NCBI GenBank assembly: GCA_958296235.1
Contig: OY282457.1
Span: forward strand, 1,860,501-1,924,500
DNA from: an uncultured Candidatus Binatia bacterium
GTDB taxonomy: Bacteria; Desulfobacterota; Binatia; Bin18
Direction: 5' to 3'
DNA length: 64,000 nucleotides
The notes beneath the pieces were generated by a model. It did not search any database, was not told the DNA's origin, and saw only the letters and a program-made list of their open reading frames with translations. The translations under genes and the position numbers were made by a program. Positions 9,203-30,826 of the stretch are shown here, piece by piece (the first letter of the stretch is position 1; each line of letters starts with the position of its first letter).

Positions 9203-9621
9203 AGACACTCTATTTTGAAGAGGTCGAAGAAGGCGATGAGTTGCCCCCTATCGACCTGCTCCTGACCAAAGACTTTGTCCGCACCTACGCCAGGACGGCC
9301 GGCATGGATTTCCCACGTTTCACAGATGACGCAGGGGCGCGCCAGGAGGGCCTGCCGGGCATGATCGCGCCTGGGGTCTTAAGTATGGGGCTGCTGGCCC
9401 GACTGATCGGCGAGTGGAACCAGGCGGCGCAGATTACCCGCATCGGCACGACGTTTCGCAGTCCGGTTCTGCCTGACTGTCATATTCACCTGCTGGGCTT
9501 TGTCACGCAAAAGGATATAGAGCGGCATGCGGTGGAGTGCGATATCTGGATGGAGAACCATGAGGGAGAACGCTGGGTCATTGGAACGGCGACCGTTGTG
9601 TTGCCAACCAGGAACCCCTAG
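9199..9621 (+). CDS. MaoC-like enoyl-CoA hydratase subunit
   Basis: The product is 140 residues. VRTYARTAGMDFPRFTDD and GLPGMIAPGVLSMGLLARLIGEW give the hydratase helix and overhang region of a MaoC hotdog. The usual N-P-x-H is replaced by FPRF, so catalytic competence needs checking. The start overlaps the partner gene (ATGA). The pair is matched by a second pair at 49.9-50.8 kb. It is last in the run that begins with the hydrolase at 5.5 kb. Confidence 0.82.
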   Translation: MKTLYFEEVEEGDELPPIDLLLTKDFVRTYARTAGMDFPRFTDDAGARQEGLPGMIAPGVLSMGLLARLIGEWNQAAQITRIGTTFRSPVLPDCHIHLLGFVTQKDIERHAVECDIWMENHEGERWVIGTATVVLPTRNP

Positions 9622-9646
9622 AGGACAGTATTCAGAGAGTAGAACA

Positions 9647-10414
9647 ATGCAAAAAAGACGACTGGGCGGTGTGATGGTTCTCTGTTTGGTCAGTATGCTC
9701 GGACTTGGCCCACACGTGCCAACAGCCCTGGCTCAGAATGAAGCGATGCAGCAGGGGCTGAATGACCCCCTGGACACGCTTGACACCGCCCTCCCCGCGT
9801 ACGAACCGTCTGTTTTTGAACCCTTTAATGAGAAGATGTTCTCCTTCAACATCTGGATGGACGAACATATCCTCCGACCGGTTGCCCGTTCCTATGCCGG
9901 GGCTGTGCCGGAGCCGGCGCGGCTCAGTGTGCGCCGTTTTTTCGACAATATCGGTGTCGTGCCGCGCTTCGCCAATAGTCTCTTTCAGCTCAAGCTGGAC
10001 GGTGCGGCGCGGGAAGCCGGACGCTTTATGATCAATACGACGATTGGCGGTCTCGGCTTTTTCGATGTTGCCAAAAATCAGTTTGGGCTCGAAAGGAGCG
10101 AAGAAGATTTTGGTCAAACGCTCGGGAAGTATGGCGTGGGACCGGGGCCATATCTGGTGCTGCCCTTTATCGGCCCGTCTACGGTGCGAGATGCCGTTGG
10201 CTGGGTCGCGGACGGAGCCATGGATCCGAAAACCTATTTTTTGTCCACGGTCGAAGTCACGGCCACGGATACTGGCGCGCTGCTAACCAGTGCGGTCAAC
10301 GAACGCTCCCTCAATCTTGAACTCTTCGAGAGCGTGGACCGCTTTTCTCTTGATATGTATAGCGCAGTACAAGACTTCTACCTGCAAAACCGGGAGAGGC
10401 AAATCGCAGAATAA
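9647..10414 (+). CDS. mlaA: MlaA/VacJ family outer-membrane lipid transport protein
   Basis: The product is 255 residues from the ATG at 9647. A signal peptide (hydrophobic VMVLCLVSMLGLG, likely cut after ALA) precedes the VacJ domain: YEPSVFEPFNEKMFSFN..., FDNIGVVPRFANSLFQLK, ...DFGQTLGKYGVGPGPYLVLPFIGPSTVRD. MlaA removes mislocalised phospholipid from the outer leaflet. There is no lipobox cysteine at the cleavage site, unlike the E. coli lipoprotein. It is followed by hpnM and hpnN, so it belongs to the hopanoid locus. Confidence 0.9.
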   Translation: MQKRRLGGVMVLCLVSMLGLGPHVPTALAQNEAMQQGLNDPLDTLDTALPAYEPSVFEPFNEKMFSFNIWMDEHILRPVARSYAGAVPEPARLSVRRFFDNIGVVPRFANSLFQLKLDGAAREAGRFMINTTIGGLGFFDVAKNQFGLERSEEDFGQTLGKYGVGPGPYLVLPFIGPSTVRDAVGWVADGAMDPKTYFLSTVEVTATDTGALLTSAVNERSLNLELFESVDRFSLDMYSAVQDFYLQNRERQIAE

Positions 10415-10455: not shown

Positions 10456-11115
10456 GTGTCGAGGAGCTTGATCGTGGTCAGAACTCTATCAGGATTAAAG
10501 GATTTATATGATTATCCTGGTAATCATATCATCCTGGTCCTTTTGGCGATGGGTCTTCTTTTTCCGCAGCTCGGCTGGGCGGATTCTCCGGCGGAGGTGA
10601 CCAAACGGCTGATTTCTACTATGCAATCCTGCGGTCAGGAATTTGGCTCTCCCTCAGCCCCTCCCCAGTGCACCAGTCAAGAGATTGAAAAAAACCTGGC
10701 AATTGTTCAACTGTCGCGCTGGCTGATGGGCCCGCACTGGGACACCCTCGGCCAGGAGAAGCAGGACGATTTCATCGGTCTCCTCACGCGCTTGCTGCGT
10801 GAGCTGGCCTATCCGAGAGCGTCGGAATTTCTGGCTGACACGCAATTCGAATACGGTGACACGCAGTTACAGGGCAATGAGGCGCTGACTGAGGTCTCGG
10901 TCGTGAATCCAGACGAAGGGCGCGTGACCATCGGGTTTCGGCTCAACCAGTCGGAGGGCGTGTGGAAGATTTGGGATGTCCGGCTTGACGGGGTCAGTAT
11001 GGCCAGCAACCTGCGCAAACAAGTCCAATCGCTCATGTCCAAACAATCCTATGAGGAATTGGTGAAGCGGATGCAGCAGAAAATTACGAACGCCAAGACC
11101 GAAGAGGCCGGATAA
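10456..11115 (+). CDS. hpnM: HpnM, MlaC/Ttg2D-like periplasmic lipid-binding protein
   Basis: The product is about 219 residues from a GTG at 10456. A nearby GTG at 10474 is an alternative start. A signal peptide with core IILVLLAMGLLFPQLGWA is followed by an MlaC domain (SPAEVTKRLISTMQ..., LLTRLLRELAYPRA..., VNPDEGRVTIGFRLNQ..., WKIWDVRLDGVSMASNLRKQV). Such proteins carry lipids across the periplasm. Genes of this family next to hpnN are called hpnM in hopanoid clusters. An unusual CQEF/PQCT cysteine pair near the N-terminus may form a disulfide. Confidence 0.88.
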   Translation: MSRSLIVVRTLSGLKDLYDYPGNHIILVLLAMGLLFPQLGWADSPAEVTKRLISTMQSCGQEFGSPSAPPQCTSQEIEKNLAIVQLSRWLMGPHWDTLGQEKQDDFIGLLTRLLRELAYPRASEFLADTQFEYGDTQLQGNEALTEVSVVNPDEGRVTIGFRLNQSEGVWKIWDVRLDGVSMASNLRKQVQSLMSKQSYEELVKRMQQKITNAKTEEAG

Positions 11116-11307: not shown

Positions 11308-14142
11308 GTGGAGACACGACCCGTGCAGGCCATCCCCCTGTCTCTTAAACAACGCCTCGTTGCCCTGGAAAAACGCGCCCTGCGGGCCTGCGCCCAGGGG
11401 GTCGTTTCGTACGCCAAGACGGCCCTGGCTGTCTGCCTCCTTCTTTCGGTTGCGGCCTCACTCTACACCGCACGGCATCTCGAACTCGTCACCGGTCGGA
11501 ATGATTTGATTTCGACCGAAAAGCGCTATCTGCAACTTGATGAGGAATATTCCGAAGAGTTTATCGGCGTGGACCAAGTGGCCGTTGTGGTTGAACCGCG
11601 AGACATCCCGCAGGGCAAAGCCTTTGTGACTCGCCTGGGCGAACGCCTCGCCCAGGAGCGGGAGCATATTGCTGAAATTTTTTACCGGGTCGATGCTTCC
11701 TCCTTAGAGGGCAAGAAGCTGCTCTACCTGCCGGTTGAGGATTTGCGCGATTTGCGCCGGAGTCTCGAAGACTCGCAAGAGATTATTCATGAGCTGCTGA
11801 CGCAGCCTGGTCTGAATACGCTGTTCGAGGCGATTAACACCCAAGCCAGCAGTGCCGTGGTTTCGCATCTGGTTGACGACTTCCTCGGGCTGGGAGCCCC
11901 ACTGGATGAGGACTCCGGCGAGTTCTCCGACGCTCAGTTGTCCTTTCTCAACGCCTTGTTACAGGAGATCGGGCGGGCGCTGCACGGGCAGGACTACCAC
12001 TACCGTTCCCCCTGGGCCGAGTTTTTTGGGGGGACGGCCCAGCTCGATGATGATGGCTTCCTCATTGCTGAGAACCGCAAATACATCTTTCTCATGGTCG
12101 AGGCGAAAGAAAACGCCGCCGCGGGTTTCAACGACCTTCAGGAATCGATGGCGGCTATTCGGCAGGCGATTACCGACCTGAAAGTGGAGTTTCCGGGTCT
12201 GGATGCCGGCGTCACCGGCACAAAGGCGCTGGGCAATGACGAAATGCTCAGCGCCCAGCACGATACGGCCGTGGCAACGGTGGTGTCCCTGTCGGGTATT
12301 GCGCTCCTCTACCTGCTCTTTTTCCGACGTATTCGGCATCCGCTCTTCATTGTCTCAGCGCTCATGGTCGGCCTGAGCTGGACGCTTGGTTTTGTCACGC
12401 TCGCGGTCGGTCATCTGACGATTATTACCGTCTTCATCGCCCCGATGCTGCTCGGCTTGGCCGACGATTTCGGCGTCCACTTCATGACCCGCTATGAGGA
12501 AGAGCGCGGCAAGGGAAAGGACCAGGCCGAAGCCATTACCATCGTGTTTGAACAGACTGTGCCCAGTATTATTGCGGGAGCGTTGACCACCTCGCTCGCT
12601 TTTTTTGCGGTTATACTGGCGGACTTTCGCGGGGTTCAGGAACTCGGCATCATTTCGGGCGGGGGAATCCTGCTGTCCGTTCTCGCGGTTCTGACTTTCC
12701 TGCCAGCCTTGATCGTCGGGGTGGACTCGTTCTGGCCCTGGCGGGTTTCCGTGGGACAGCAGACGCTCTTGCAGACGACGTTTTCGGGGTTGGGCCAATA
12801 CGTCGAACAGAAGAGAAACTTCCTTCTCGGAATCGTCGGGCTGGCAACCGCAGCCGGACTCCTGGCGCTGCCGTGGGTCTCCTTTGACTATAATCTGCTG
12901 AACCTCCAGGCCCACGGCACCGAGTCGGTTGAGTGGGAAAAGCGTATTATTGAAAACTCCGAACGCTCGTCCTGGAACGCCCTGGCGACCGCGCCGACGC
13001 CAGAAGCGGCGCGTCAAAAGGCCCAGGCGTTTGCTGCTCTGCCCAGCGTGGAGACCGTTGAAAGCGTAGCGTCACTGATTCCTGATGGACAACAGGAACG
13101 CTTCCCTGTCCTTGCAGCCATCCGCCCGCTGCTGAGTGAGCTCCCTCCGCTCCGCACCGAGCCTCAGGCGGTAGAGGTCGAGCAGCTCGAACGTACCCTG
13201 GATAAACTCCGCCTCAAAATTCGCGCTCAGGAAAACGGCAGCGAGACCCTGCTGCATCAGGCGCGCCAGCATCTGCTGGCCGTTTTTGACACGCTCCGAA
13301 CGCTGCCCGAACAGAACCTTCAACCGCGTCTGGCCCTCTTTCAGCATGCCCTGTTTCTCGACTTTCAGGATAAATGGTCACTGCTCAGCAATAACCTGTC
13401 TCCGGCCGGTCCGATCACATTTGCCGATGTCCCAGCGCAGTTACGCAGTCGCTTCGTCAGCCGGGACGGCCAGCGGTTTCTGTTGCAGATTTATCCCAAG
13501 GAAAATATCTGGGAGCGCGAATCACTGACGGAGTTCATTCGGCAACTCCGCACGGTTGACCCGGATGTGACCGGCTCCCCGATTATTGGCTACGAGTCCA
13601 TTGGGGCGATGCGGAACGGCTACGTTGAGGCGGCCTGGTATGCCTTCCTCGCCATCCTGGTCGTCACCTTTTTGGCGCTCCGACGCGCCAGGTATGCACT
13701 GCTGGCCATCCTGCCCCTCGGTCTGGGTATGATCTGGACCGCGGGCCTGATGTGGCTGGGGGATGTGCAATTCAATCTTGCCAATATGGTTGCCGCCCCG
13801 CTGATTATCGGCATCGGCGTGGAGAATGGCATCCATCTCGTCCATCGTTTCCGAGCAGGGCGTGACGGCTCGGTCGTCAGCTTGATTGCCGGCAGTACCG
13901 GCCAGGCGGTCGTCCTGTTCTCATTGACGACCATGGTCGGCTTTGGCAGTCTCATGGTCGCCCAATACTATGGTATTTTCAGTATGGGCCTGCTGCTGAG
14001 CCTGGCAGTCGGGAGTGTCCTGATTGCCTCCATTGTGGTCTTGCCGCTGCTCTTATACCGAGCGGAAAGGAGCGGTCAGGAGTCGGGGGTCGTCGCGCCG
14101 GAACTCTCCGTACAAGACTCGGCTCAAGGGGACTTGTCGTAA
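11308..14142 (+). CDS. hpnN: HpnN, hopanoid-associated RND transporter
   Basis: The product is 944 residues from a GTG. The layout is an N-terminal transmembrane helix, a large periplasmic domain, a five-helix membrane block (about 325-480), a second periplasmic domain, and a final membrane block (about 770-925). This is the MMPL/SSD form of RND proteins. The motif MLLGLADDFGVHFMTRYEEERG in the first block, and IGIGVENGIHLVHRFRAG in the second, are characteristic. HpnN moves hopanoids to the outer membrane. The 192-base gap upstream shows no ORF or clear terminator. The next gene starts 17 bases after the stop. Confidence 0.93.
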   Translation: METRPVQAIPLSLKQRLVALEKRALRACAQGVVSYAKTALAVCLLLSVAASLYTARHLELVTGRNDLISTEKRYLQLDEEYSEEFIGVDQVAVVVEPRDIPQGKAFVTRLGERLAQEREHIAEIFYRVDASSLEGKKLLYLPVEDLRDLRRSLEDSQEIIHELLTQPGLNTLFEAINTQASSAVVSHLVDDFLGLGAPLDEDSGEFSDAQLSFLNALLQEIGRALHGQDYHYRSPWAEFFGGTAQLDDDGFLIAENRKYIFLMVEAKENAAAGFNDLQESMAAIRQAITDLKVEFPGLDAGVTGTKALGNDEMLSAQHDTAVATVVSLSGIALLYLLFFRRIRHPLFIVSALMVGLSWTLGFVTLAVGHLTIITVFIAPMLLGLADDFGVHFMTRYEEERGKGKDQAEAITIVFEQTVPSIIAGALTTSLAFFAVILADFRGVQELGIISGGGILLSVLAVLTFLPALIVGVDSFWPWRVSVGQQTLLQTTFSGLGQYVEQKRNFLLGIVGLATAAGLLALPWVSFDYNLLNLQAHGTESVEWEKRIIENSERSSWNALATAPTPEAARQKAQAFAALPSVETVESVASLIPDGQQERFPVLAAIRPLLSELPPLRTEPQAVEVEQLERTLDKLRLKIRAQENGSETLLHQARQHLLAVFDTLRTLPEQNLQPRLALFQHALFLDFQDKWSLLSNNLSPAGPITFADVPAQLRSRFVSRDGQRFLLQIYPKENIWERESLTEFIRQLRTVDPDVTGSPIIGYESIGAMRNGYVEAAWYAFLAILVVTFLALRRARYALLAILPLGLGMIWTAGLMWLGDVQFNLANMVAAPLIIGIGVENGIHLVHRFRAGRDGSVVSLIAGSTGQAVVLFSLTTMVGFGSLMVAQYYGIFSMGLLLSLAVGSVLIASIVVLPLLLYRAERSGQESGVVAPELSVQDSAQGDLS

Positions 14143-14159: not shown

Positions 14160-14645
14160 ATGGTCAGCGGACCCCAGTTTGTGCAACACCTCAGGAATGC
14201 CGGCTTCGACTTTTTCACTGGCGTGCCCTGCTCTTTGGTCAAAAGTGTGATTGCCACGCTTGAAGAACGGGGCGGCTATATTGCCGAGACACGCGAAGAC
14301 GCCGCGGTGGGCCTGGCGGCAGGAGCCTATCTGGCTGGCAAACAGCCCGTTGTCATTATGCAGAATTCAGGCCTGGGGGTGTGCCTGAATGCGCTGTCTT
14401 CTCTCAGTTTGATCTATGCCCTGCCCTGTTTGCTGTTAATTACGTGGCGCGGGTATCAGGGCAAAGACGCGCCGGAGCATCTCATTATGGGAGACATCCT
14501 GCCCGAGCTGTTATCCACCCTGAAGATTCCGTATCGGGTGCTTGAAGAACACACCCTTGAGGGCGCTATTGGCTGGGCGGCCTCAACCCTGAAGCAGACG
14601 AGTCGCCCGACGGCGCTGGTCCTTCCGCCCGGAGTTGCCGCATGA
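14160..14645 (+). CDS. Phosphonopyruvate decarboxylase, pyrimidine-binding (alpha) subunit
   Basis: The product is 161 residues. It is the N-terminal half of a thiamine-diphosphate decarboxylase: FFTGVPCSLVKSVI, the glutamate-bearing TREDAAVGLAAGAYLAG, and VVIMQNSGLGVCLNALSSL, which is diagnostic of phosphonopyruvate and sulfopyruvate decarboxylases. The reaction would be phosphonopyruvate to phosphonoacetaldehyde. The phosphono reading is chosen because an aminoethylphosphonate transaminase follows. It is a separate gene from its C-terminal half, overlapping by four bases. AAAGGAGG precedes the start at slightly long spacing. Confidence 0.85.
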   Translation: MVSGPQFVQHLRNAGFDFFTGVPCSLVKSVIATLEERGGYIAETREDAAVGLAAGAYLAGKQPVVIMQNSGLGVCLNALSSLSLIYALPCLLLITWRGYQGKDAPEHLIMGDILPELLSTLKIPYRVLEEHTLEGAIGWAASTLKQTSRPTALVLPPGVAA

Positions 14646-15223
14646 ACCTGGCCCAGGCCCTGAGTGTGGTTATCCCTGCCCTGCCGGACGCCCTGATTGT
14701 CCATGCGAATGGATTTATTTCGCGGGAGTCCTTCAATCTTGAGGATCGGCGCGGCAATTTCTATATGATCGGCTCAATGGGCCTGGCCTCGTCTATTGCG
14801 CTCGGCGTGGCCCTGAGCAAACCTGAGCGGCGCGTGGCCGTCTTTGACGGGGATGGCAATGTCCTCATGAATATGGGCTCGCTGGCCTTGATCGGCGCGC
14901 AGCAGCCGCGCAATCTGGTTCACCTTGTTTTTGATAATGAAGTTTACGGTTCGACGGGCAACCAGCCGACGATTTCCAGTCGCGTGGCGCTCGACGAAGT
15001 GGCGCGGGCGAGCGGCTATGTCGAGACACGGCGCGCAGAGGAGGCCGACCAACTGCGCGCCGCGGCGCAGGACCTGCTGGCGCGAGATGGACCGTCATTT
15101 CTACTGATTAAAATTGAGCCGGACCGGCAAGAGCGTCACATTGGTCGGATTACGCACGAGCCACAGCACATTGTCAGACGCTTTATGGGGGAGATAGAGA
15201 AGGGGGATAGAGAAAGGAGATAG
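14642..15223 (+). CDS. Phosphonopyruvate decarboxylase, diphosphate-binding (beta) subunit
   Basis: The product is 193 residues. It has the thiamine-diphosphate motif GDG (70-72) with the asparagine of DNEVYG about 26 residues on, plus GSMGLASSIALGVAL. It forms the second half of the decarboxylase with the preceding gene. In most phosphonate producers the enzyme is one chain of roughly 370-400 residues. The split form resembles ComD/ComE sulfopyruvate decarboxylase, which remains the alternative. The C-terminal residues are encoded by a purine-rich tandem repeat and may be dispensable. Confidence 0.85.
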   Translation: MNLAQALSVVIPALPDALIVHANGFISRESFNLEDRRGNFYMIGSMGLASSIALGVALSKPERRVAVFDGDGNVLMNMGSLALIGAQQPRNLVHLVFDNEVYGSTGNQPTISSRVALDEVARASGYVETRRAEEADQLRAAAQDLLARDGPSFLLIKIEPDRQERHIGRITHEPQHIVRRFMGEIEKGDRERR

Positions 15224-15245
15224 AGAGGGGAGATAGAGAAGGGAG
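15187..15245 (+). repeat. Purine-rich tandem repeat with Shine-Dalgarno-like units
   Basis: About five imperfect copies of GGGAGATAGAGAA run from the last codons of the decarboxylase beta subunit to the ATG of the transaminase. Each unit carries GGAGA or GGGGA, so unit number could change the beta C-terminus and the ribosome loading of the next gene. Confidence 0.7.
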
Positions 15246-16337
15246 ATGATGCAACAATACGTTCTTCTGAATCCCGGCCCCGTCAATGTTTCTCCGCGTG
15301 TCCGGCAGGCTCTCCTGCGTGGAGACCTCTGCCATCGGGAAGAAGAGTTTTCCGACCTGCTGGCTGCGGTTCGCGCCAAGCTGCTCCAGGCGTTTGCCCC
15401 GCAAGGCTATACCGCGGTGGTGGTGAGCGGCTCAGGCACCCTGGCGGTTGAGGCTATGGTCTCGTCGGCTCTGCCAGAGGGAAGCAAGCTGCTGGTGATT
15501 AACAACGGCGTCTATGGCGACCGGATGCGCCAGATGGCCGAAGCCCACCGTATCCCGACTGTAGAATTGCGCTATGCCTGGACCGAAGCGCCGAACGCGG
15601 AGCGGATTGCGTCCGCCCTGAGCAATGATCCCGCTATCGCGGCAGTGGCCCTGGTCCAGCATGAGACCACCACCGGCCTGCTCAACCCTGTGACTGCAAT
15701 TGGCAGGGTGGTGCGTCAGGCCGGGCGGCTGTTTCTGCTCGACGCGGTGAGCGCGCTGGGCGGTGAAGACCTTGATGTTGCGCGCGATAGCGTGGACCTG
15801 TGCGCCTGTACAGCCAACAAATGTATCCAGGGCCAGCCGGGGGTGGCCTTTGTGTTGGTTCGGAACGAAGTCATGGCGGCTCTGCAAAATTATCCCCGCC
15901 GTTCGCTCTACCTCCACCTGCCATTGCACTGGGAGGCGCAGGAACGCCGCAGTATTCCATTTACGCCAGCCATCCCGGCCTGGTATGCGCTGGATGCCGC
16001 TCTTGATGAACTCCTGGAGGAAACCCCCGCGGGACGGGTCGAACGCTACCGTCAGGCCGCCCGGTTCCTGCGCGCCGGCTTTGCGGAACTCGGACTCTCT
16101 TTCCTCCTTCCCCCGGAATTACGCGCCAACTCCCTGACCTCGCTGGTCTTGCCCCAGGGTATGGCGTATCCCCGTTTGCATGACGACCTCAAACAGCGTG
16201 GCTTTGTCATTTACGAGGGACAGGGAAAACTCCGAACCGATATTTTTCGAGTCGCCAATATGGGACATCTGACCCTGGACGATTTTCAGCGTTTTCTCGA
16301 CGCTCTCAAGGACGTGCTGTCAGGCGGGAGACCATGA
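15246..16337 (+). CDS. phnW: 2-aminoethylphosphonate aminotransferase (PhnW-like)
   Basis: The product is 363 residues, a fold-type I PLP enzyme. LLNPGPVNVSPRVRQAL at the N-terminus, SGSGTLAVEAM (phosphate binding), the aspartate in LLDAVSALGGE (166) and the PLP lysine in TANKCIQGQPG (192) match PhnW. In a biosynthetic setting it converts phosphonoacetaldehyde to 2-aminoethylphosphonate. The gene order decarboxylase, transaminase, cytidylyltransferase supports synthesis, not breakdown. It overlaps the next gene by four bases. A related serine-pyruvate type transaminase is the main alternative. Confidence 0.88.
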   Translation: MMQQYVLLNPGPVNVSPRVRQALLRGDLCHREEEFSDLLAAVRAKLLQAFAPQGYTAVVVSGSGTLAVEAMVSSALPEGSKLLVINNGVYGDRMRQMAEAHRIPTVELRYAWTEAPNAERIASALSNDPAIAAVALVQHETTTGLLNPVTAIGRVVRQAGRLFLLDAVSALGGEDLDVARDSVDLCACTANKCIQGQPGVAFVLVRNEVMAALQNYPRRSLYLHLPLHWEAQERRSIPFTPAIPAWYALDAALDELLEETPAGRVERYRQAARFLRAGFAELGLSFLLPPELRANSLTSLVLPQGMAYPRLHDDLKQRGFVIYEGQGKLRTDIFRVANMGHLTLDDFQRFLDALKDVLSGGRP

Positions 16338-17080
16338 AAGCGATTATCCTCGCGGCCGGTGTTGGCAAACGACTTCAGGCCATCACCGACCAGAGGCCCA
16401 AGTGTTTGATTCAGGTCAATGGCAAAACCTTGCTCGAACGCACCCTCACCGCTTTAGGAGCTGCTGGGGTCCGAGAAGCGGTCATCGTGACCGGCTATCG
16501 TGGAGACATGATTGTCGAAGAAATCGGTGAGCGGCGCGGCGGCGTGAGCGTGCGCTATATCCGCAACCCACAGTACGAAAAGGGCGCCATCCTGTCGCTC
16601 TGGAGCGCGCGCCAGGAGTTCGACACTGACCTGCTGATTATGGATGCCGATGTGCTGTTCCCGGTGCGTTTGCTGAAGCGCCTGGTGCAATCCAGACACG
16701 CAAACTGTTTCTTGCTTGATGCGAGTTCCGAGAATACCGGCGAAGAACAAATGCTGCTGACCCGCGCCGGGCGGGTGCTGACGATTATCCGGGGTGGCGC
16801 CGGCGACTACGACTTGGTGGGCGAGTCGGTCGGTTTTCTCAAGGTCGCGCGAGACGCTGCTCCGCTGCTCCGCTCTATCCTCGATGACTGTGTGGCTCAG
16901 GGCCGAGACACGATTGAGCATGAAGAAGCCTTCCCGGCGTTTCTGGCCCAGCGCCATGTTGGCTTTGAGCAGGTTGACGACCTGCCCTGGACCGAAATCG
17001 ATTTTCCGCACGACCTCGAACACGCCGAACGCGACATCCTGCCCGCTATCGAACGGCTCGACGCGCATGACAAGAGATGA
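16334..17080 (+). CDS. pntC: Nucleotidyltransferase, probable CTP:aminoethylphosphonate cytidylyltransferase
   Basis: The product is 248 residues with a sugar-nucleotidyltransferase fold: LAAGVGKRLQAITDQRPKCL (nucleotide binding), metal-binding MDADVLFP, and the C-terminal DLPWTEIDFPHDLEHA. This last pattern is shared with LicC- and PntC-type cytidylyltransferases. PntC activates 2-aminoethylphosphonate as CMP-aminoethylphosphonate for transfer to cell-surface molecules, and the coupled upstream transaminase makes that substrate. Choline-phosphate activation is the alternative. No transferase enzyme to use the product is encoded next to it. Confidence 0.82.
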   Translation: MKAIILAAGVGKRLQAITDQRPKCLIQVNGKTLLERTLTALGAAGVREAVIVTGYRGDMIVEEIGERRGGVSVRYIRNPQYEKGAILSLWSARQEFDTDLLIMDADVLFPVRLLKRLVQSRHANCFLLDASSENTGEEQMLLTRAGRVLTIIRGGAGDYDLVGESVGFLKVARDAAPLLRSILDDCVAQGRDTIEHEEAFPAFLAQRHVGFEQVDDLPWTEIDFPHDLEHAERDILPAIERLDAHDKR

Positions 17081-17272: not shown

Positions 17273-18190
17273 GTGCCGTTAAAGGAGGGGGACAGGGGGG
17301 GGCCTGCCGCACGCTATCTCATCGTCAACGGGGACGATTTCGGCCTGTCCGCTCAGGTCAATACCGGCATAGTGCGCGCCCATCAGCAGGGCATTCTGAC
17401 TAATACCAGCCTTATGGTCACGGCGCCGGCCTGGGAGGAAGCGGTCGAGCTTGCCCGCTCGACACCGAGCCTCGGAGTTGGACTGCATATGACCTTAGTC
17501 CAGGGGCGGGCCGTTCTCTCCCAACAGGACCTCCGCGCGATTATCGATAGCGCGGGGAATTTTGCGCACGACCCAACCCGAGCCGGGTTCCAGTATTATT
17601 TCTCCCAGCGGGCGCGGGAAGAAATCCGCGCCGAATGCCGGGCCCAGCTTGAGCGTTTTCTGGAAACGGGCTTACCCCTGTCCCATATTGATGGACATCT
17701 CAACATCCATATGCACCCGGTCGTTATGGACGCTCTCCTGACGCTCGCACAGGAATACCCTATTCCGGCCATGCGCCTGACCCGAGAAGACCTGACGACC
17801 AGCCTGACGCTCGACCCGCGCCATGCCTTGAGAAAACGCTGGGAGTCCTTTGTCTTTACACTCCTCGCCAGGACGACAGAAAAGAAGCTGCGGCGCGCTC
17901 GGGTTCCCTACCCGGAGCATCTGTTTGGCCTGTATCAAAGTGGCGCGCTGAATGAAGCCTACCTGCTGGGTCTGTTGCCACGACTCCAGGCCGGCGTCAC
18001 CGAGTTGTACTGCCACCCGTCCTTCTTGCCCTGCCCTGAGACCGAACGCTGGACGCCAACCTATCAGCGAGATGTTGAGCTTGCGGCGCTCACCAGTCCA
18101 ACGGTTCAGGCCCTGGCCGCTCAAGAAGATATCCGGTTCGTCAGCTATCGTGAGCTCCCGTCGCTTCGTGCAGAAGCGGGGATTAATTGA
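17273..18190 (+). CDS. hpnK: HpnK, hopanoid N-acetylglucosamine deacetylase (YdjC/ChbG family)
   Basis: The product is 305 residues. NGDDFGLS near the N-terminus, GLHMTLVQG, HIDGHLNIHMHP and ELYCHPSF are the metal and catalytic motifs of the YdjC deacetylase family. HpnK removes the acetyl group from the GlcNAc added by HpnI to bacteriohopanetetrol. The only usable start is the GTG at 17273. Its Shine-Dalgarno GAGGGGG is the end of repeat copy A, and AAAGGAGG now lies inside the coding region. The 3' end overlaps hpnI tail to tail by eight bases. Confidence 0.9.
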   Translation: MPLKEGDRGGPAARYLIVNGDDFGLSAQVNTGIVRAHQQGILTNTSLMVTAPAWEEAVELARSTPSLGVGLHMTLVQGRAVLSQQDLRAIIDSAGNFAHDPTRAGFQYYFSQRAREEIRAECRAQLERFLETGLPLSHIDGHLNIHMHPVVMDALLTLAQEYPIPAMRLTREDLTTSLTLDPRHALRKRWESFVFTLLARTTEKKLRRARVPYPEHLFGLYQSGALNEAYLLGLLPRLQAGVTELYCHPSFLPCPETERWTPTYQRDVELAALTSPTVQALAAQEDIRFVSYRELPSLRAEAGIN

Positions 18191-19349
18191 CGCGCACCAT
18201 GCGGCCGTCTTTTTGGAGCCGGAAGGTATACTCTCGCCAGCGGACGGTGTTGCCCCGCAAGCTGGCGCACCAGACAACAAAAGAGAGGAGGTCGGCGAGG
18301 AGGGTCAGCAGAATGACGGGACGCGGCAGCGTCGATTGCAGAAAGACGCTGTTCATCACAGCAGCGGTCAGAAGGCGTAGCCCGATGACGCTGAGGGCGA
18401 GAACGGTCATCTCTACAGACGACCGAAAACAGAGCAGGCTCACACAGGCCCAGACCGTGCCAAACGTCACAACTGTACCGACATACCCGCCGGGACGACA
18501 GTTGCGTTGCGTTCGCGCCCAGCGCAACTGATGGTAAAATAACTCGCGCAGCGAGCCGGCATCGGGGCGGGTTTCAACGACGGTGGAAAGGACGCGCAAC
18601 TGATAGCCGGCCTGCGCAATGAGATAGCCAAGATAATAGTCGTCCGCCAGGTAATCGGACAGCCTGGCAAATCCCCCAATAGCGTCGAGGCAGGCGCGTT
18701 TGAGCGCTATGGTTGCCCCGAAGGCATACGTGGGCTGTTCTATCTGGCTGGCGACCACGACCTGGGTGGTAAAAGTCGTATTGATCATGAGCGATTCCAG
18801 CAGAGCCGGCAGGGGCTGGCAGGAACCGCCCCGATACACACACGTGACCAGACCTGTTTCCGTAGGCGTTAAGGGCGGGATGATCGTCCGCAAGTAATCG
18901 GGCGCAACACAGACATCGCTATCGGTAACGACAAGATAGTCATACTTCATCTGCGGTGTCAGATGATGCAGGGTGCTGACCTTGTAGTTGGCCCCAATCG
19001 CAGAGGGCGCAACAACCAGGGACATATCGCACTGGGGAAAATCGCGCTGCACTTTCTTGACAATAGCAACCGCCGGATCATTGGGGTCGCGGACGCCGTA
19101 TAGGATTTGGAAGGTCGGATAATCGAGCTGGCAAAAGCTTGCCAGACTGTCGTACAGATCGGGCGGCGCGCCCTTGAGCGGCTTGAGGATAGTGACCGGG
19201 GGCAGAGTCGTGCCAGGCCGGTCCCGAGTCCTGCCGAAGGGGGCCGGACTCGGACGGAAAAAGCGCCACGCGGCATAGATACTAAAAAGGTAATAGACCA
19301 GGGCGATGCACAGCAGACCGACCAGGAACCAGAGTACAAGCAGGGGCAT
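18183..19349 (-). CDS. hpnI: HpnI, hopanoid glycosyltransferase
   Basis: The product is 388 residues. An N-terminal membrane helix (about 3-24) precedes a GT2/GT21 catalytic domain like ceramide glucosyltransferase: PPVTILKPLKG, DSD at 143-145, ADDYYLG and the HQLRWAR motif. At least two C-terminal membrane helices follow. HpnI adds N-acetylglucosamine to bacteriohopanetetrol at the inner membrane, before HpnK and HpnJ act. It is 40 bases downstream of hpnJ on the same strand. Confidence 0.92.
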   Translation of the reverse strand: MPLLVLWFLVGLLCIALVYYLFSIYAAWRFFRPSPAPFGRTRDRPGTTLPPVTILKPLKGAPPDLYDSLASFCQLDYPTFQILYGVRDPNDPAVAIVKKVQRDFPQCDMSLVVAPSAIGANYKVSTLHHLTPQMKYDYLVVTDSDVCVAPDYLRTIIPPLTPTETGLVTCVYRGGSCQPLPALLESLMINTTFTTQVVVASQIEQPTYAFGATIALKRACLDAIGGFARLSDYLADDYYLGYLIAQAGYQLRVLSTVVETRPDAGSLRELFYHQLRWARTQRNCRPGGYVGTVVTFGTVWACVSLLCFRSSVEMTVLALSVIGLRLLTAAVMNSVFLQSTLPRPVILLTLLADLLSFVVWCASLRGNTVRWREYTFRLQKDGRMVRVN

Positions 19350-19389: not shown

Positions 19390-20832
19390 TTAGGCAGCCG
19401 GAGAAGAAATGGCGCTCATCTCCCGCCGTTTCCGCATGGTGCGGAAAAAATCCTTGCCTTCCTGCCACATCCGTTTCCGCTCTTCCGGGTCGCGCGCCAT
19501 CTTTTTCACGGCTTTGAAGATATAGCGCGGGCGGAGGTAATACGAGCGGTAAAATTTCTCAACCGTTTCAAAAATCTCCTCCCCGGACAGATTCGGATAG
19601 TTAATCACGCACTGCTGATAGCCCGACTCGCCCACCATATCCTCGGCCTTGATATAGCCGTTGTCGAGGGCAAAATCGTAAAAGGCGGTGCCAGGATAGG
19701 GAGAAGCCAAAGAGACCTGAATGGTTTCCGGATTCATCTCCCGGGCAAAACGCATGGTCTCCTGCATGGTCTCACGGGTTTCTCCCGGCAGGCCCAGAAT
19801 AAAGGTGCCGTGGATTAAAATGCCAAGCGTGTGGCAGTCCCGCGTAAAGCGCCGCGAGGTTTCGAGGGCCACGCCTTTTTTAATGTTCTTGAGAATGGCC
19901 GCGTTCCCTGACTCATAGCCGACAACAAACAGCCGCAGCCCACCATCTTTCAGCGCCTTGAGGGTCTCGTAGTCCACATTGCCGCGCGCGTTGGTGGACC
20001 AGCACAGGCCGAGGGCACCCATTTTTTTGGCGATCTCACGCGCCCGCTTCGGGTCGGCCGTAAACGTATCGTCATCAAAGAAGACCTCTTTCATACCGGG
20101 AAAGAGGCGCTTCATTTCCTGCACTTCCTCAATGACATTACCCACCGAGCGGGTGCGGTAGGAATGGCCGGTGGTCACCTGCGGCCACAGACAAAACGTG
20201 CAGCGCGCCGGACAGCCCCGGCCGGTGTACAACGACACATAGGGATACTGGCAATAGGGGCTGTTATACTTTCGGAAGTCCAAATCGCGGTCATAAATCT
20301 GAGTGACAAAGGGCAGCTGGTCAAGCTCTGCATTAGTAAGCGTCGGACGGTCAAGATTGTGATGGATGTGTCCGTCCTTGCGGTAGCTGATGCCCCGGAC
20401 GTCTTTCCAATCCCATCCCTCGGCAACCTCTTTCATCGAGTAGTCAAACTCTTTCCGAGCGGCGATATCAATGGCGTCAGAGCTGCGTAAGGTCTGCTCC
20501 GGCTCAGCCGTGGCCTGACCGCCCACAAACGCGATAGTGCAAGCCGGATTTTTTTCTTTGATCAGCTCCGCGGTGCGCGCGTCCAGTTTCACCGACGGCG
20601 TACTGGTGTGCAGCACAACAAAATCGTACTCTTTGGCGATCTCAACGGTCTGCGCCTGGTTTAACCCTTCGGGCGGAGCGTCCAGCACACGGCTATGCTC
20701 AATCAGGCCGGCCGGATAACACAGCCAGGTCGGATACCAGAACGACCAGACCTCACGCGTCGCCTGATAGCGTGAGCCCGCGCCACCGTCAAAGTTTTCA
20801 TATGCAGGCGGATTTAAGAACAATGTACGCAT
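19390..20832 (-). CDS. hpnJ: HpnJ, hopanoid radical SAM protein
   Basis: The product is 480 residues from the ATG at 20832 (ribosome site GGAGAG). The frame is open upstream, but MRTLFLNPP is the family-like start. An N-terminal cobalamin-binding-like domain (about 1-125) is followed by a radical SAM barrel with C207, C211 and C214 in the motif CPARCTFC. HpnJ converts the glucosamine head group to the cyclitol ether of bacteriohopanetetrol cyclitol ether. Together with hpnI and hpnK this completes the known head-group pathway. Confidence 0.93.
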   Translation of the reverse strand: MRTLFLNPPAYENFDGGAGSRYQATREVWSFWYPTWLCYPAGLIEHSRVLDAPPEGLNQAQTVEIAKEYDFVVLHTSTPSVKLDARTAELIKEKNPACTIAFVGGQATAEPEQTLRSSDAIDIAARKEFDYSMKEVAEGWDWKDVRGISYRKDGHIHHNLDRPTLTNAELDQLPFVTQIYDRDLDFRKYNSPYCQYPYVSLYTGRGCPARCTFCLWPQVTTGHSYRTRSVGNVIEEVQEMKRLFPGMKEVFFDDDTFTADPKRAREIAKKMGALGLCWSTNARGNVDYETLKALKDGGLRLFVVGYESGNAAILKNIKKGVALETSRRFTRDCHTLGILIHGTFILGLPGETRETMQETMRFAREMNPETIQVSLASPYPGTAFYDFALDNGYIKAEDMVGESGYQQCVINYPNLSGEEIFETVEKFYRSYYLRPRYIFKAVKKMARDPEERKRMWQEGKDFFRTMRKRREMSAISSPAA

Positions 20833-20980
20833 TCGTGCTTCTCTCCTTCCCGGCCGCGGCATGTCTGAACATAGCCTCCCCCCCTCCGAAAGGATGGTAT
20901 TATACACATGAGGATAGAGAAGGAAAGCGAGGAGTGGTTCAGATAGTGGTTCAGTTTGCTTATTCCCCCTCACCCTCCAG

Positions 20981-21319: not shown

Positions 21320-24046
21320 ATGAAGAAACGGAAGTGGTGGTCGTTGAATCTTTTCGTGAGCCTGCTCACCGTGCTGGGAGCATCTGTGGCCGGCTCACAG
21401 CAGGCAGAACAGACGGAAGCAGCCGAAGTACAACAGGAGCAGGAAGAGGTGCTCGGGCTCGACACGCTCAGCGTGGTCGGCTCGCGTCTGCCGGGCCGCT
21501 CGGCTCGGGACTCTCCGGTCCCGGTGGATATCATTCAGGGCGACGACTTGCAGACCTACGGTATCCGGGACATGGACTCGCTGCTGCGCGCGACCGTACC
21601 GTCCTACAACGTCAGTCAGCAGCCCATCAGCGACGCGGCGACGTTCGTCCGCCCGGCCAACCTGCGCGGGCTGCCGCCGGACTCTACGCTGGTGCTGGTC
21701 AACGGCAAACGCCGGCACCGCGCCGCGGTGATCGTCCTCTTCAGCAACGGGCTGTCGGACGGCGCGCAGGGCACCGACCTGTCCACCATCCCGACCATTG
21801 CCCTGGAGCGGGTCGAAGTGCTGCGCGACGGGGCCGCGGCCCAATACGGCTCGGACGCGATTGCCGGGGTGTTGAACTTCAAGCTGCGGGAAAACCGGGA
21901 GGGCCTGAGTGTGCAGACCAGCCTGGGCCAGCACTACCACGGCGACGGCGACAAGATAAACGTGGCCGCCAATCTGGGCCTGCCGCTGACCGAGCGCGGT
22001 TTTGCCAATTTCAGCTTTGAGTTCATGAACGCGGACGAGACCAGCCGCAGCGTCCAGCGTAACGACGCGCTGGACCTGATCGCCGCCGGCAATACCGCCG
22101 TCCGCCGGCCCCTGTCCCAGGTCTGGGGCGCCCCCGAGGTGCAGTACGACTACAAATTCTTCGGCAACCTGGGCCTCGACCTGGAAGACATCAACGCCCG
22201 GTTGTACGCCTTCGGCAACTATGCGGAACGCAAAGTGGAGGGCGGCTTCTATTTCCGCAATCCCAACGATCGGGACGGGATTTTCGACGGTCCGCTCGTC
22301 GACCGGGACGGGAACCAGGTCCTGGACAGTAGTGGGAATCCCATCCGTTCTCTTGACGCGGCCAGGGACCAGGGCATCGCTACTACGGGCGTGAGCGACA
22401 CGGTCCCGGTCGCCGACCTGTCCGGGACGGGCGCGGGCTGCCCAGTCGTGCGGACCAACCCCGCGGCCGACTACACGGACTGGATCAACGGAGGGCTGCC
22501 CGAGCACTGCTTCCTCTTCAACGAAGTGTTTCCCGGCGGGTTCACGCCGCGCTTCGGCGGCTACGTGCAGGACTGGAGCATCGCCTTCGGCCTGCGGGGA
22601 GAACTGGAGGGGTTGGAGGGCGCGTCCGCGCTGCTCAACGGCTGGTCCTACGACGCCAGCGCCTACTTCGGTCACAACAGCGTCGAGACCTTCATGCACA
22701 ATACCATCAATCCGCAGCTCGCCGCCCTGCGCGCGAACATTCCACGCTCGTACCGGCCGGGGACTGATATGCAATTCGACAAGACGTTCAACCTGGACGT
22801 CTCCCGGCTGCTGGACCTCGGCCTTTTCTTCTCTCCGCTGAACGCCGCGTTCGGGTTCGAGTACCGGGTGGAGGAATTCGAGAAAGAGGCCGGCGGAGGA
22901 AATTCCTGGTCCATCGACCGCGGGGCGCACGGCTTGGCGGCCCAGGGCTTCGGCATCGGCTCCAATGGGTTTCCGGGCTACAGCCCCGACGTTGCCGGCG
23001 AGTGGGAGCGCCACAACTACGCGCTGTATATGGACCTGGAAGCCGAGGTGATCCGGTCCGTCACCCTTGGGGTTGCCGGCCGCTATGAGAATTTCGACGG
23101 CGACATCGGCGAGACCCTCAACGGCAAATTCTCCGCCCGTTGGCAGATCATTGAGGCGCTGGCCCTGCGCGGCGCGCTCAGCTCGGGTTTCCGCGCCCCG
23201 ACGCCGGGCCAGATCAACGTGCGCAACACAACGACGCTGAGCATCGCCGGCCGAGTACAGGACCAGGGCACCCTGCCGGCCTACCATCCGGCCGCGGCCT
23301 TCTTCAACGCCAAGCCGCTGACCCCGGAAAAGTCCGTCAACTATTCCGCCGGCGCCGTGTTCAGTGTGGGCGACCTGGAACTGACTCTCGACTATTTCCG
23401 CATCAAGGTGCAGGACCGCATCGGGTTCAGCAACAGTTTCAACAAATCGGATTTGTCCCCCGGCGAACTGGCGCGTTTCAACGCCCTGGTTCCCGAGGCG
23501 AATTCACTCGGCGCGGTGCAGTATTTCACCAACGACTTCGACACCACCACGCAGGGGGTCGATCTGGTGGCGACCTATCCGCTGACGACCGCGGCCGGCG
23601 ACACCCGGCTGACGTTCGTGGGTAACTGGACCAAGACGGCCGTCGATCGCCGGAACCCCAACACCGTCGACAACCAGCGCGTCACCCAGCTTGAAGAAAC
23701 CCTGCCGGAATTCCGGTTCTCGCTGACGGCCGACCACACCTGGGGCCTGTGGCGGTTCTTGACGCGGCTGCACTTCTACGACGATTTCCACGATTTCCAC
23801 GTATTCGACAAAAATTATCCCATCAACGCCGGCGAGCGTTGGCTGATGGACGTGGAAGCCTCGTACACTCTCTTGAACATCCCGTACATGCAGGCCGTAA
23901 CCCTGGCCGCGGGCGCGGAAAACGTGTTCGACCAGTATCCGCGGCGCAACCCCTACGCGCGCGCCCTTGGCGCGCGATACCCGGAGTCCTCGCCGTTCGG
24001 CTTCAACGGCGGGTTCTACTATCTGCGCGCCGGCTTCGAGTTCTAG
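21320..24046 (+). CDS. TonB-dependent receptor 1
   Basis: The product is 908 residues. A signal peptide (FVSLLTVLGASVAG) is followed by a short acidic Gln/Glu-rich stretch, a possible TonB box (DTLSVVGSR), and a plug domain (VPVDIIQGDDLQTYGIRDMDSLLR, LVLVNGKRRHR, VEVLRDGAAAQYGSDAIAGVLNFKL). A 22-strand barrel ends in the terminal phenylalanine GFEF. It would import a scarce ligand across the outer membrane using TonB energy. No TonB/ExbBD or ABC partner is nearby, so the ligand is unknown. It is the first of three tandem paralogs. Confidence 0.92.
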   Translation: MKKRKWWSLNLFVSLLTVLGASVAGSQQAEQTEAAEVQQEQEEVLGLDTLSVVGSRLPGRSARDSPVPVDIIQGDDLQTYGIRDMDSLLRATVPSYNVSQQPISDAATFVRPANLRGLPPDSTLVLVNGKRRHRAAVIVLFSNGLSDGAQGTDLSTIPTIALERVEVLRDGAAAQYGSDAIAGVLNFKLRENREGLSVQTSLGQHYHGDGDKINVAANLGLPLTERGFANFSFEFMNADETSRSVQRNDALDLIAAGNTAVRRPLSQVWGAPEVQYDYKFFGNLGLDLEDINARLYAFGNYAERKVEGGFYFRNPNDRDGIFDGPLVDRDGNQVLDSSGNPIRSLDAARDQGIATTGVSDTVPVADLSGTGAGCPVVRTNPAADYTDWINGGLPEHCFLFNEVFPGGFTPRFGGYVQDWSIAFGLRGELEGLEGASALLNGWSYDASAYFGHNSVETFMHNTINPQLAALRANIPRSYRPGTDMQFDKTFNLDVSRLLDLGLFFSPLNAAFGFEYRVEEFEKEAGGGNSWSIDRGAHGLAAQGFGIGSNGFPGYSPDVAGEWERHNYALYMDLEAEVIRSVTLGVAGRYENFDGDIGETLNGKFSARWQIIEALALRGALSSGFRAPTPGQINVRNTTTLSIAGRVQDQGTLPAYHPAAAFFNAKPLTPEKSVNYSAGAVFSVGDLELTLDYFRIKVQDRIGFSNSFNKSDLSPGELARFNALVPEANSLGAVQYFTNDFDTTTQGVDLVATYPLTTAAGDTRLTFVGNWTKTAVDRRNPNTVDNQRVTQLEETLPEFRFSLTADHTWGLWRFLTRLHFYDDFHDFHVFDKNYPINAGERWLMDVEASYTLLNIPYMQAVTLAAGAENVFDQYPRRNPYARALGARYPESSPFGFNGGFYYLRAGFEF

Positions 24047-24174
24047 GGGGCGGATATGCCTCCTGTCCCCCTTTTCCGGCGGAGGGGAAACGTTCAAACC
24101 AAAAGCTTGCCTGGCCGGCCAGTCTCTAGCCAAAACATCCTCTTTTATCTATGATATTATACTCAATGCCATGC

Positions 24175-24202
24175 TTCCGAAGCCGAAAGACGTGCTTCGG
24201 AA
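24175..24202. promoter_or_regulatory. Hairpin in the leader of receptor 2
   Basis: TTCCGAAGC and GCTTCGGAA form a perfect nine-base stem with a ten-base loop, about 70 bases before the start of receptor 2. TATACT upstream (24158) could be a -10 box. This would place the hairpin in the 5' leader as a repressor site or RNA structure. No matching hairpin was seen before receptors 1 or 3. Confidence 0.35.
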
Positions 24203-24270
24203 CAGGAGCGCCGGACACGGAGAGGGAGTCTTCCGCGTCCATACCAACAGAGGGAAGGGAGAACAGCAGT

Positions 24271-27027: not shown

Positions 27028-27058
27028 GCCAGAGCTGACGAACATCACATTGCAACCA

Positions 27059-27088
27059 GAGGGACGGGTTCAGGCCCGTCCCTCTTTT
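27059..27088 (+). terminator. Rho-independent terminator after receptor 2
   Basis: A perfect ten-base stem (GAGGGACGGG with CCCGTCCCTC) encloses the loop TTCAGG and is followed by TTTT. It lies 32 bases after the receptor 2 stop, so receptor 3 probably has its own promoter. Confidence 0.88.
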
Positions 27089-27160
27089 CGTCTGGTTTCT
27101 GCCGCTGCCTCAGTATGCAATGTTGTCACGGCAGGAATCCGTCATGAAGGAGGAGCGGTG

Positions 27161-29782: not shown

Positions 29783-29812
29783 CCTGACCAATAGACTGGC
29801 GGCGGGTCAGGC
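29782..29812. terminator. Inverted repeat between convergent receptor 3 and hpnL
   Basis: GCCTGACC and GGTCAGGC form an eight-base stem with a 15-base loop, overlapping the end of hpnL. The position between convergent genes suggests a bidirectional stop, but there is no U-run on either side. Confidence 0.35.
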
Positions 29813-30826
29813 CGGCGGGGTTTTCTCGGGAAAGAAGGAATAGCCGGCGCGGGTCAGGACGATCAATCCGATCAGATTATAGACCGCCTCTCGCGCCCGC
29901 TTGAGGAGCATGAGCGTCAGGCCCGCGCCCTCCCCAATACCAAGCAGGCGGCACAGGAATACCCCACCCGCCTCACGCACCCCCAGCGCGCCAGGGATAA
30001 TCAACGCCGCGGCCGTCATGGGTTGAATCATGGTTTCAATAATGAGGGCGTCCATCCAACTGGCTTGTATTCCGATCAAGGTGAAAAAAACATAGACTTC
30101 CACCGCCCCCACCGCCCAACCCAGAAAGTGATACAGGCTGGCCGCAATGAAATCCTTGGCGTCTCCGTCATACAGATGAAAAAGATGCGTATCGACGTGT
30201 TTGGCCCGCTCCTGCCAGTGCGCCAGGCGGTTCCAGCTGGGAAATCGGCGGCGCAGCCATCCAATACATTTTTCAACAAGTCCCCGCTGCTGCCAGCGCA
30301 CGATTATCAGCACGAATCCGTACGCCAGGACAAAAACGGCACCAAATATCCACCAGGCATGATAACCGATATCCAGGCGATAGAGAAAAAACGGCAGACC
30401 CAGCACGATAAAGGCGACCTGGGAGACGGTCAGGGCGGTCTTGGCAGCGACAACCGATGCCGCGCCAACATCGGAGGTCACGCCGTATTGTCGCAAGAGG
30501 TAGACCTTGACAGCCTCGCCGCCGACATTCGCCGTTGGCGTCAAATTATTGATGGCCTCGCCGGCCAGTCGGGTCAACGAGAGCTGAAGAATGGAGAGTT
30601 GCCTGGCGGCCGCTGAGCCACCCATAGTATAGCCCCAGCCCTTGGCGTCAAACAGCGCCACAAAGCTCTGGGGGACGAGGACCAGGGGGGCGAGCCAGCC
30701 AATATGGTACAGGCGCTGGGCAACCTCAGTAATGCCGACCTTCCAGAAGAGCGCTCCCAGCAGGCTGAGACCGATCAGCGCTGCGCCAAGCTGGAGGGCC
30801 CGGCTCTTTTTCTGCTCCGCGGTCAT
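29807..30826 (-). CDS. hpnL: HpnL, hopanoid-associated membrane protein (UPF0104/LPG synthase-like)
   Basis: The product is 339 residues with about eight membrane helices. The motifs LAGEAINNLTPTANVGGEAVKVYLL and MTAAALIIPGALGVREAGGVFL are those of the lysylphosphatidylglycerol synthase transmembrane family, of which HpnL is the hopanoid-cluster member. Its exact step is unknown; a flippase or lipid-transfer role has been proposed for the superfamily. It is separated from hpnJ by the receptor array. The ribosome site is weak. Confidence 0.85.
   Translation of the reverse strand: MTAEQKKSRALQLGAALIGLSLLGALFWKVGITEVAQRLYHIGWLAPLVLVPQSFVALFDAKGWGYTMGGSAAARQLSILQLSLTRLAGEAINNLTPTANVGGEAVKVYLLRQYGVTSDVGAASVVAAKTALTVSQVAFIVLGLPFFLYRLDIGYHAWWIFGAVFVLAYGFVLIIVRWQQRGLVEKCIGWLRRRFPSWNRLAHWQERAKHVDTHLFHLYDGDAKDFIAASLYHFLGWAVGAVEVYVFFTLIGIQASWMDALIIETMIQPMTAAALIIPGALGVREAGGVFLCRLLGIGEGAGLTLMLLKRAREAVYNLIGLIVLTRAGYSFFPEKTPPA

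Follow-up and report, generated by a model that had tools for sequence, protein, structure and literature searches.

A predicted aminoethylphosphonate module beside hopanoid-type genes in a Binatota genome, with counterparts in Nitrospira and Brocadiales

The activation of 2-aminoethylphosphonate (AEP) by the cytidylyltransferase PntC, and fusions of phosphoenolpyruvate (PEP) mutase (Ppm) to a nucleotidyltransferase domain, are already known (PMC6697681). In characterised hosts, the functions of HpnI, HpnK and HpnJ on bacteriohopanetetrol (BHT) (glucosamine, cyclitol ether) are established, whereas that of HpnL is not (PMC12583986); Nitrospirales encode shc and hpnH (PMC10579370). The literature that we searched (open-licence papers) contained no report on phosphonate-bearing hopanoids and none on phosphonates in Nitrospira or Binatota. 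Here we analyse a 64-kb stretch of the genome of a soil-type Binatota bacterium (G000, C1:1860501-1924500; hereafter the window). Between HpnN and HpnK, and like them on the forward strand, it carries genes for the alpha and beta subunits of a putative phosphonopyruvate decarboxylase (PPD), a PhnW-like transaminase and a predicted PntC-type cytidylyltransferase (Table 1). Gene content, family assignments, motifs and conservation across phyla point to this module as probably the middle part of a dispersed pathway that would place AEP on a lipid, with enzyme activities and step order predicted.

An earlier, sequence-only reading had described a split PPD, a PhnW-like gene and a PntC-type gene between hpnN and hpnK, and open reading frames and family assignments bear this out: 17 bases separate the end of HpnN from the start of PPD alpha, and 192 bases separate the cytidylyltransferase gene from HpnK. 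Its description of the module genes as overlapping holds for two of the three junctions (PPD alpha/PPD beta and transaminase/cytidylyltransferase, 4 bases each); at the remaining one, a gap of 22 bases separates PPD beta from the transaminase. Genes in the high-GC loci were called by a codon-usage score, and codon statistics favour the reading frames of the module genes.

The module very likely makes AEP. The window transaminase scores above the cut-off of the PhnW-AepZ family, its closest solved relatives are AEP transaminases and its Lys192 is invariant; we infer that it runs in the biosynthetic direction. A catabolic role of PhnW was set aside because the partner genes encode PPD and a cytidylyltransferase rather than phosphonatase (a genome-wide search for PhnX was not made). 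The closest solved relative of PPD beta, at 125.7 bits, is 9iz3, a ‘putative phosphonopyruvate decarboxylase beta subunit’, and both PPD subunits are kept in the module in every group compared. Seven Nitrospina loci (L083, L085, L088, L091, L092, L103 and L115) have an ortholog-like PhnW with no other module gene nearby.

Formation of CMP-AEP by the module is likewise likely. The AlphaFold model of the window cytidylyltransferase (CYTIDYLYLTRANSFERASE; mean pLDDT 93.4) had the PntC-AEPT structures 6pd1 and 6pd2 as its seven top Foldseek matches, with inositol-phosphate cytidylyltransferase, MurU and LicC ranked below them, and a VIA-align comparison placed it closest to the PntC domain of 6pd2 (Z 31.1, 2.2 Å over 243 residues; LicC, 27.3). 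The motifs GxGxR, PK and DAD (acidic metal) are invariant in 16 sequences. Of the amine-contact residues of Tde-PntC, Glu104 corresponds to a LicC-like Asp104 in the window protein and Glu196 to a Tde-PntC-like Glu197, so the contact residues alone cannot settle AEP versus phosphocholine. Families, structures and conserved clustering thus support the earlier proposal that the module makes and CMP-activates AEP.

As the sequence-only reading had noted, the window contains neither a PEP mutase nor a CDP-alcohol-type final transferase; candidates for both lie elsewhere in the genome. A genome-wide profile search gave a single strong match to TIGR02320 (4e-83): at C1:997 kb, a frame of 584 aa carries a PEP-mutase-like domain fused to a nucleotidyltransferase domain. 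TIGR02320 is its best-scoring family (276.7-279.3 bits, below the cut-off of 319.55), and its N-terminal domain matches PEP phosphomutase 5unc with 277 bits, phosphonopyruvate hydrolase with 245 and lyases with 143 or less. The search for a PEP mutase beyond the window therefore yielded a candidate, though one with a non-canonical motif: the loop reads EDNIFPKRCS, against the Ppm signature EDKxxxxxNS, and because of this departure we term the protein PEP-mutase-like. EDN(I/V/E/D)(F/Y)PKRCS occurs in all 28 variant copies whose motif is complete, G000 included, in an alignment that covers Binatota, Rokubacteria-labelled and Nitrospira loci. The catalytic positions of the barrel that could be aligned (Asp, Glu, Lys, Arg and His; alignment with 1m1b and 1pym) are invariant between the variant and the canonical fusions of two other Binatia genomes (G038 and G145). 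The AlphaFold model of the fused protein was not used; its gating loop was predicted with low confidence (mean pLDDT 68.6). Among the other PEP-mutase-family genes of this genome (L002-L004), L003 (EDQVEPKRCGH) and L004 (EDQDVPRRCGH) have lyase motifs, and EDKxxxxxNS was not seen in any of them.

The fused mutase is present in 32 of 148 Binatia genomes, with those reached by two routes, recognised by identical contig coordinates or sizes, counted once (for example, G068=G141, G084=G142, G072=G031 and G070=G045). A natural DISPLACEMENT is provided by G038 and G145 (2 of the 32), in which the best copy is 39% identical, with the canonical EDKLFPKKNS and the same two-domain layout. Both genomes retain PPDa-PPDb-PhnW and the cytidylyltransferase gene (L057; L079), and their congeners G045 and G146 have variant-family copies that are 57-58% identical. 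This suggests that canonical and variant fusions feed the same pathway. The role of the variant is supported because G038 and G145, which do not have it, encode a canonical fusion in its place; the swap was probably one evolutionary event, and the evidence is therefore strong but single.

Other features of the mutase loci are as follows. In the nucleotidyltransferase domain fused to the mutase (C-terminal half of L001:1474-3150), GxGxR is lost (GFEEDLL) in f1, the family of the window, and in Nitrospira copies, and the canonical G038 and G145 fusions are degenerate at the same position; because of this, the domain may not be a working cytidylyltransferase. Directly 3′ of the fused mutase is a gene for a 325-aa protein with squalene-hopene-cyclase-like toroid repeats (L005:10799-11776; G000:C1:998798-999775), which occupies this place in all f1 mutase loci read and is followed by a small Rieske ferredoxin (L005:11797-12123) that is conserved in f1. 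A copy in G045, which lacks squalene-hopene cyclase (SHC), is 60% identical and 2.7 kb from the mutase. In G031, and apparently also in G052, the mutase and PPDa are separated by diverged toroid-like proteins; in the Binatia genome G148, a cytochrome P450-like gene (L089:7665-8858) lies at this place.

Across f1, PPDa-PPDb-PhnW is downstream of HpnN in 12 of the 12 loci counted, a conservation that argues against a chance arrangement, and close relatives also retain the MlaA-family gene 5′ of HpnN. In the Binatota families f5, f7 and f8 the fused mutase is directly upstream of PPDa-PPDb-PhnW and the cytidylyltransferase gene, and HpnK, HpnI, HpnJ or HpnL is near in most loci. With one genome per species scanned, the module was found in Nitrospira, Brocadiales, Planctomycetota and one Rokubacteria-labelled contig; Nitrospira moscoviensis (NZ_CP011801) carries the full cluster, and 17 of 49 Nitrospirota loci have the mutase within a few kilobases on the opposite strand. 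The Brocadiales and Planctomycetota loci have HpnJ, HpnK and HpnI on one side of the module and a CDP-alcohol transferase on the other. Direct adjacency to HpnN is seen in f1, and adjacency to HpnI/J/K in f1, f5, f8, Brocadiales and Planctomycetota. The proposed linkage to hopanoid-type genes is thus conserved, through HpnN/K/I/J in several Binatota families and HpnI/J/K in Brocadiales and Planctomycetota, and the survey of hpnN neighbourhoods did not place the trio of PPD, transaminase and cytidylyltransferase far from hpn genes in all relatives. Two public metagenome-assembled genome records in this set (L073 and L086), named Klebsiella pneumoniae, are Binatia by content (the same contigs as G013 and G031) and are mislabelled.

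A CDP-alcohol-type transferase, predicted by the sequence-only reading, directly follows the trio in Nitrospira, f8 Binatota and Brocadiales. It is near the cytidylyltransferase gene in all 3 Brocadiales/Planctomycetota loci, in 7 of 10 loci of other Binatota and in 47 of 49 Nitrospirota loci; the Nitrospirota order is cytidylyltransferase, then CDP-alcohol phosphotransferase (47/49 loci) and an HpnL-type flippase (45/49). Some Nitrospira loci (L104, L114, L117 and L127) have three consecutive HpnL-type flippase genes after the transferase. The two G000 copies, both away from the trio, share 47.6% identity with one another and, over the aligned parts, about 34-45% with the Nitrospira enzyme; they retain the motif DxxDGxxARx8GxxxDxxxD and are related to AF2299 and IPCT-DIPPS. 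Because of the clustering in relatives, we infer that they may use CMP-AEP as donor. The HpnL-type protein of the window is 34% identical to the module flippase of N. moscoviensis.

In the pathway that we propose, the variant fusion outside the window would convert PEP to phosphonopyruvate, PPD alpha/beta would yield phosphonoacetaldehyde, the PhnW-type transaminase would form AEP and the PntC-type enzyme would combine AEP with CTP to CMP-AEP. One or both of the CDP-alcohol phosphotransferases would then transfer the AEP group to a hydroxyl of a membrane lipid, for which a hopanoid polyol (alone or with an HpnI/K/J headgroup) or another glycolipid or diacyl lipid are candidates, and the HpnL-type flippase and the neighbouring HpnN/MlaA/MlaC machinery would move the product to the outer membrane. 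The coordinates of the genes are given in Table 1; between hpnJ and hpnL, the window also contains three tandem TonB-dependent receptors (908, 958 and 910 aa; 21320-29782).

Table 1. Module genes and neighbours in the window, and candidate genes elsewhere in the genome (G000:C1 positions)
Feature	Position	Strand	Remarks
MlaA-family outer-membrane lipoprotein	9527..10414	+	PF04333 217 bits; start codon uncertain
MlaC/HpnM-like periplasmic lipid carrier	10456..11115	+	PF05494 76 bits; HpnM 48 bits, below cut-off
HpnN-like RND/MMPL lipid transporter	11308..14142	+	TIGR03480 602 bits, full length; curated cut-off 752 not reached
Putative PPD alpha, thiamine diphosphate (TPP) N-terminal domain	14160..14645	+	TPP_enzyme_N; Ppyr-DeCO2ase 131 bits
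Putative PPD beta, TPP C-terminal domain, GDGNVLMN motif	14642..15223	+	TPP_enzyme_C; Ppyr-DeCO2ase 185 bits
AEP transaminase, PhnW/AepZ type	15246..16337	+	TIGR03301 364.5 bits, above cut-off (360.8)
Predicted PntC-type CTP:AEP cytidylyltransferase, MobA-like NTP transferase	16334..17080	+	Motifs and predicted structure
HpnK, YdjC-family deacetylase	17273..18190	+	TIGR03473 310.7 bits, above cut-off
HpnI glycosyltransferase	18183..19349	-	TIGR03472 358.7 bits, above cut-off
HpnJ B12-radical SAM enzyme	19390..20973	-	TIGR03471 723 bits, above cut-off
HpnL/LPG_synthase_TM flippase-like protein	29807..30826	-	TIGR03476 175.9 bits, below cut-off 195.65; PF03706
CDP-alcohol phosphotransferase, copy 1	G000:C1:947448-948737		Away from trio
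PEP-mutase-like domain fused N-terminally to nucleotidyltransferase domain	G000:C1:997071-998750		Likely start Met26, read from alignment
CDP-alcohol phosphotransferase, copy 2	G000:C1:2658731-2659924		Away from trio

Several observations weigh against this pathway. The Ppm signature is absent from every full variant copy aligned, which makes the conversion of PEP to phosphonopyruvate uncertain, and the Cys of the variant motif coincides with that of the lyase KRC motif. For each PPD subunit, the phosphonopyruvate and sulfopyruvate decarboxylase profiles give almost the same score (alpha, 131 versus 129 bits; beta, 185 versus 182); these are scores of the two halves of a split protein, and the cut-off of TIGR03297 is 312.5. 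Several f1 genomes are without the cytidylyltransferase beside PPDa-PPDb-PhnW, G004 (94% complete) has the trio and no mutase was detected in it, and mutase, transferases and trio are far apart in G000. The closest characterised CDP-alcohol enzymes, DIPPS and AF2299, can use soluble or other acceptors. Taken to its end, the non-canonical motif together with the sulfopyruvate decarboxylase scores would fit a module that makes no phosphonate, in which a lyase-like fusion and a sulfopyruvate decarboxylase precede a transaminase that makes taurine or a similar amine, and the nucleotidyltransferase acts on phosphocholine or a sugar phosphate. We consider this quite improbable: the fusion resembles lyases far less than it does PEP mutase and phosphonopyruvate hydrolase, a canonical fusion replaces it in G038 and G145, the transaminase belongs with PhnW-AepZ, the nucleotidyltransferase is structurally nearest to PntC and PPD beta is nearest to a putative phosphonopyruvate decarboxylase. 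For described Pnt clusters, CMP-AEP is proposed to decorate a cell-surface glycan (the lipopolysaccharide core, a capsule or an exopolysaccharide), with a LicD-like or other transferase attaching it (PMC6697681). This fate is also improbable here: in reading the module loci we noticed no LicD-type gene, and the recurrent neighbours are a CDP-alcohol transferase and a lipid flippase.

A membrane lipid is our preferred and probable acceptor; that it is specifically a hopanoid, with AEP on BHT or on its HpnI/HpnK/HpnJ glucosamine/cyclitol headgroup and export by HpnN, is a tentative proposal. The adjacency to HpnN and HpnI/J/K, the HpnL-type flippase within the Nitrospira module and the action of HpnI/K/J on BHT in characterised hosts (PMC12583986) all speak for it. 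G000 has SHC and HpnH; SHC is found in 24 of 30 genomes that were selected by way of loci with the transaminase in several groups, and in 25 of 32 Binatia module genomes versus 65 of 116 others (Fisher 0.025, uncorrected for relatedness; kinship among genomes inflates such co-occurrence tests). However, a product confined to hopanoids is at odds with the seven module genomes that lack SHC (G021, G031, G045, G052, G141, G142 and G143), of which G021 is 98% complete in 6 contigs and G021, G031, G045 and G052 also lack HpnH; a broader cyclase profile gave at most a weak 33-bit match in them, to the G045 toroid protein near the mutase. In genomes without SHC, HpnK tracks the module (5 of 7 carriers versus 3 of 51 non-carriers), as does HpnI (4 of 7 versus 3 of 51), and HpnI-HpnJ adjoin a CDP-alcohol transferase in G141 and G142 (L210, L212). 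HpnI/J/K-type genes can thus accompany the AEP module where no hopanoids are made. Because the SHC-less carriers retain the module and five retain HpnK, AEP may instead go to a different glycolipid of HpnI/HpnK type or to a diacyl lipid. In addition, hpnI/J/K are not near Nitrospira modules, and no HpnI was detected in N. moscoviensis. An AEP phosphonolipid on diacylglycerol or a glycolipid would accommodate the persistence of the module without SHC and HpnH, as well as the transferase and LPG_synthase_TM/HpnL-type flippase: the former would resemble an ethanolaminephosphotransferase, the product would be a phosphono analogue of phosphatidylethanolamine and the hopanoid genes would be neighbours through common envelope lipid export. 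It leaves the recurrent HpnI/HpnJ/HpnK adjacency in several lineages unexplained, and we regard it as rather unlikely. A hopanoid may be the acceptor in most hosts, although the data do not require one. The earlier claim that AEP is attached to a hopanoid or another HpnN/MlaA-handled lipid thus stands as to lipid transfer, which is likely, whereas the hopanoid, as stated, is unsupported in view of the seven genomes; that reading is partly supported, right on chemistry and linkage and too specific on the acceptor. Similarly doubtful, in its full form, is the proposal that Binatota, Nitrospira and anammox-related bacteria make phosphonohopanoids through a new class of PEP mutase in which a lyase-like Cys replaces the canonical Asn.

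Under the proposed pathway, abundant nitrogen-cycle bacteria would have membrane lipids that carry phosphonate; we found no prior report of phosphonate synthesis in these bacteria. Because the mutase motif is EDNxxPKRCS, surveys that filter on EDKXXXXXNS would miss the carriers, and more C-P bonds may therefore be made in soils, sediments and wastewater than is estimated; one such survey discarded sequences without EDKXXXXXNS, 22 of them fused (PMC6697681), and these may include the variant mutase group. Candidate roles also follow for hpnL, and for hopanoid-type hpnI and hpnK outside hopanoid synthesis, as does a possible new lipid biomarker. N. moscoviensis is cultured and has the full cluster, which makes direct testing possible.

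Among described systems, the Pnt (phosphonyl tailoring) pathway (Tde1415 PntC-AEPT of Treponema denticola and PntC of A. rimae; Rice et al. 2019, PMC6697681) has the same NTP-fused PEP-mutase-type enzyme, PPD, AEP transaminase and PntC; in 6pd2, the PntC domain is the best match of the window cytidylyltransferase model, and the AEPT domain is matched by the window transaminase with 200 bits. This Pnt-type gene set is clustered in f5, f7 and f8 Binatota and many Nitrospira, with the mutase elsewhere in G000. The module departs from Pnt systems in its mutase motif (EDNxxPKRCS in place of EDKxxxxxNS), in having a split PPD and individual genes for PntC and AEPT, and in its neighbourhood, where hopanoid-type genes occur with a CDP-alcohol transferase and an HpnL flippase rather than LicD and glycan genes. 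The N-terminal domain of the mutase shares catalytic residues with its closest solved relatives, PEP phosphomutase (5unc, 1pym) and phosphonopyruvate hydrolase (2dua), but differs from them by Lys to Asn and Asn to Cys changes in the gating-loop motif and by a C-terminal nucleotidyltransferase domain without GxGxR. Counterparts of the hopanoid headgroup genes hpnI, hpnK and hpnJ (PMC12583986) stand beside the module with scores above their family cut-offs, although HpnI and HpnK are kept with the module also in SHC-less genomes. The CDP-alcohol transferases share family, catalytic motif and an N-terminal extra domain with AF2299 (4o6m) and IPCT-DIPPS (4mnd), but have low identity to them and CMP-AEP as predicted donor. 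What is new here is Pnt-like chemistry joined to a variant mutase and a predicted lipid-directed end.

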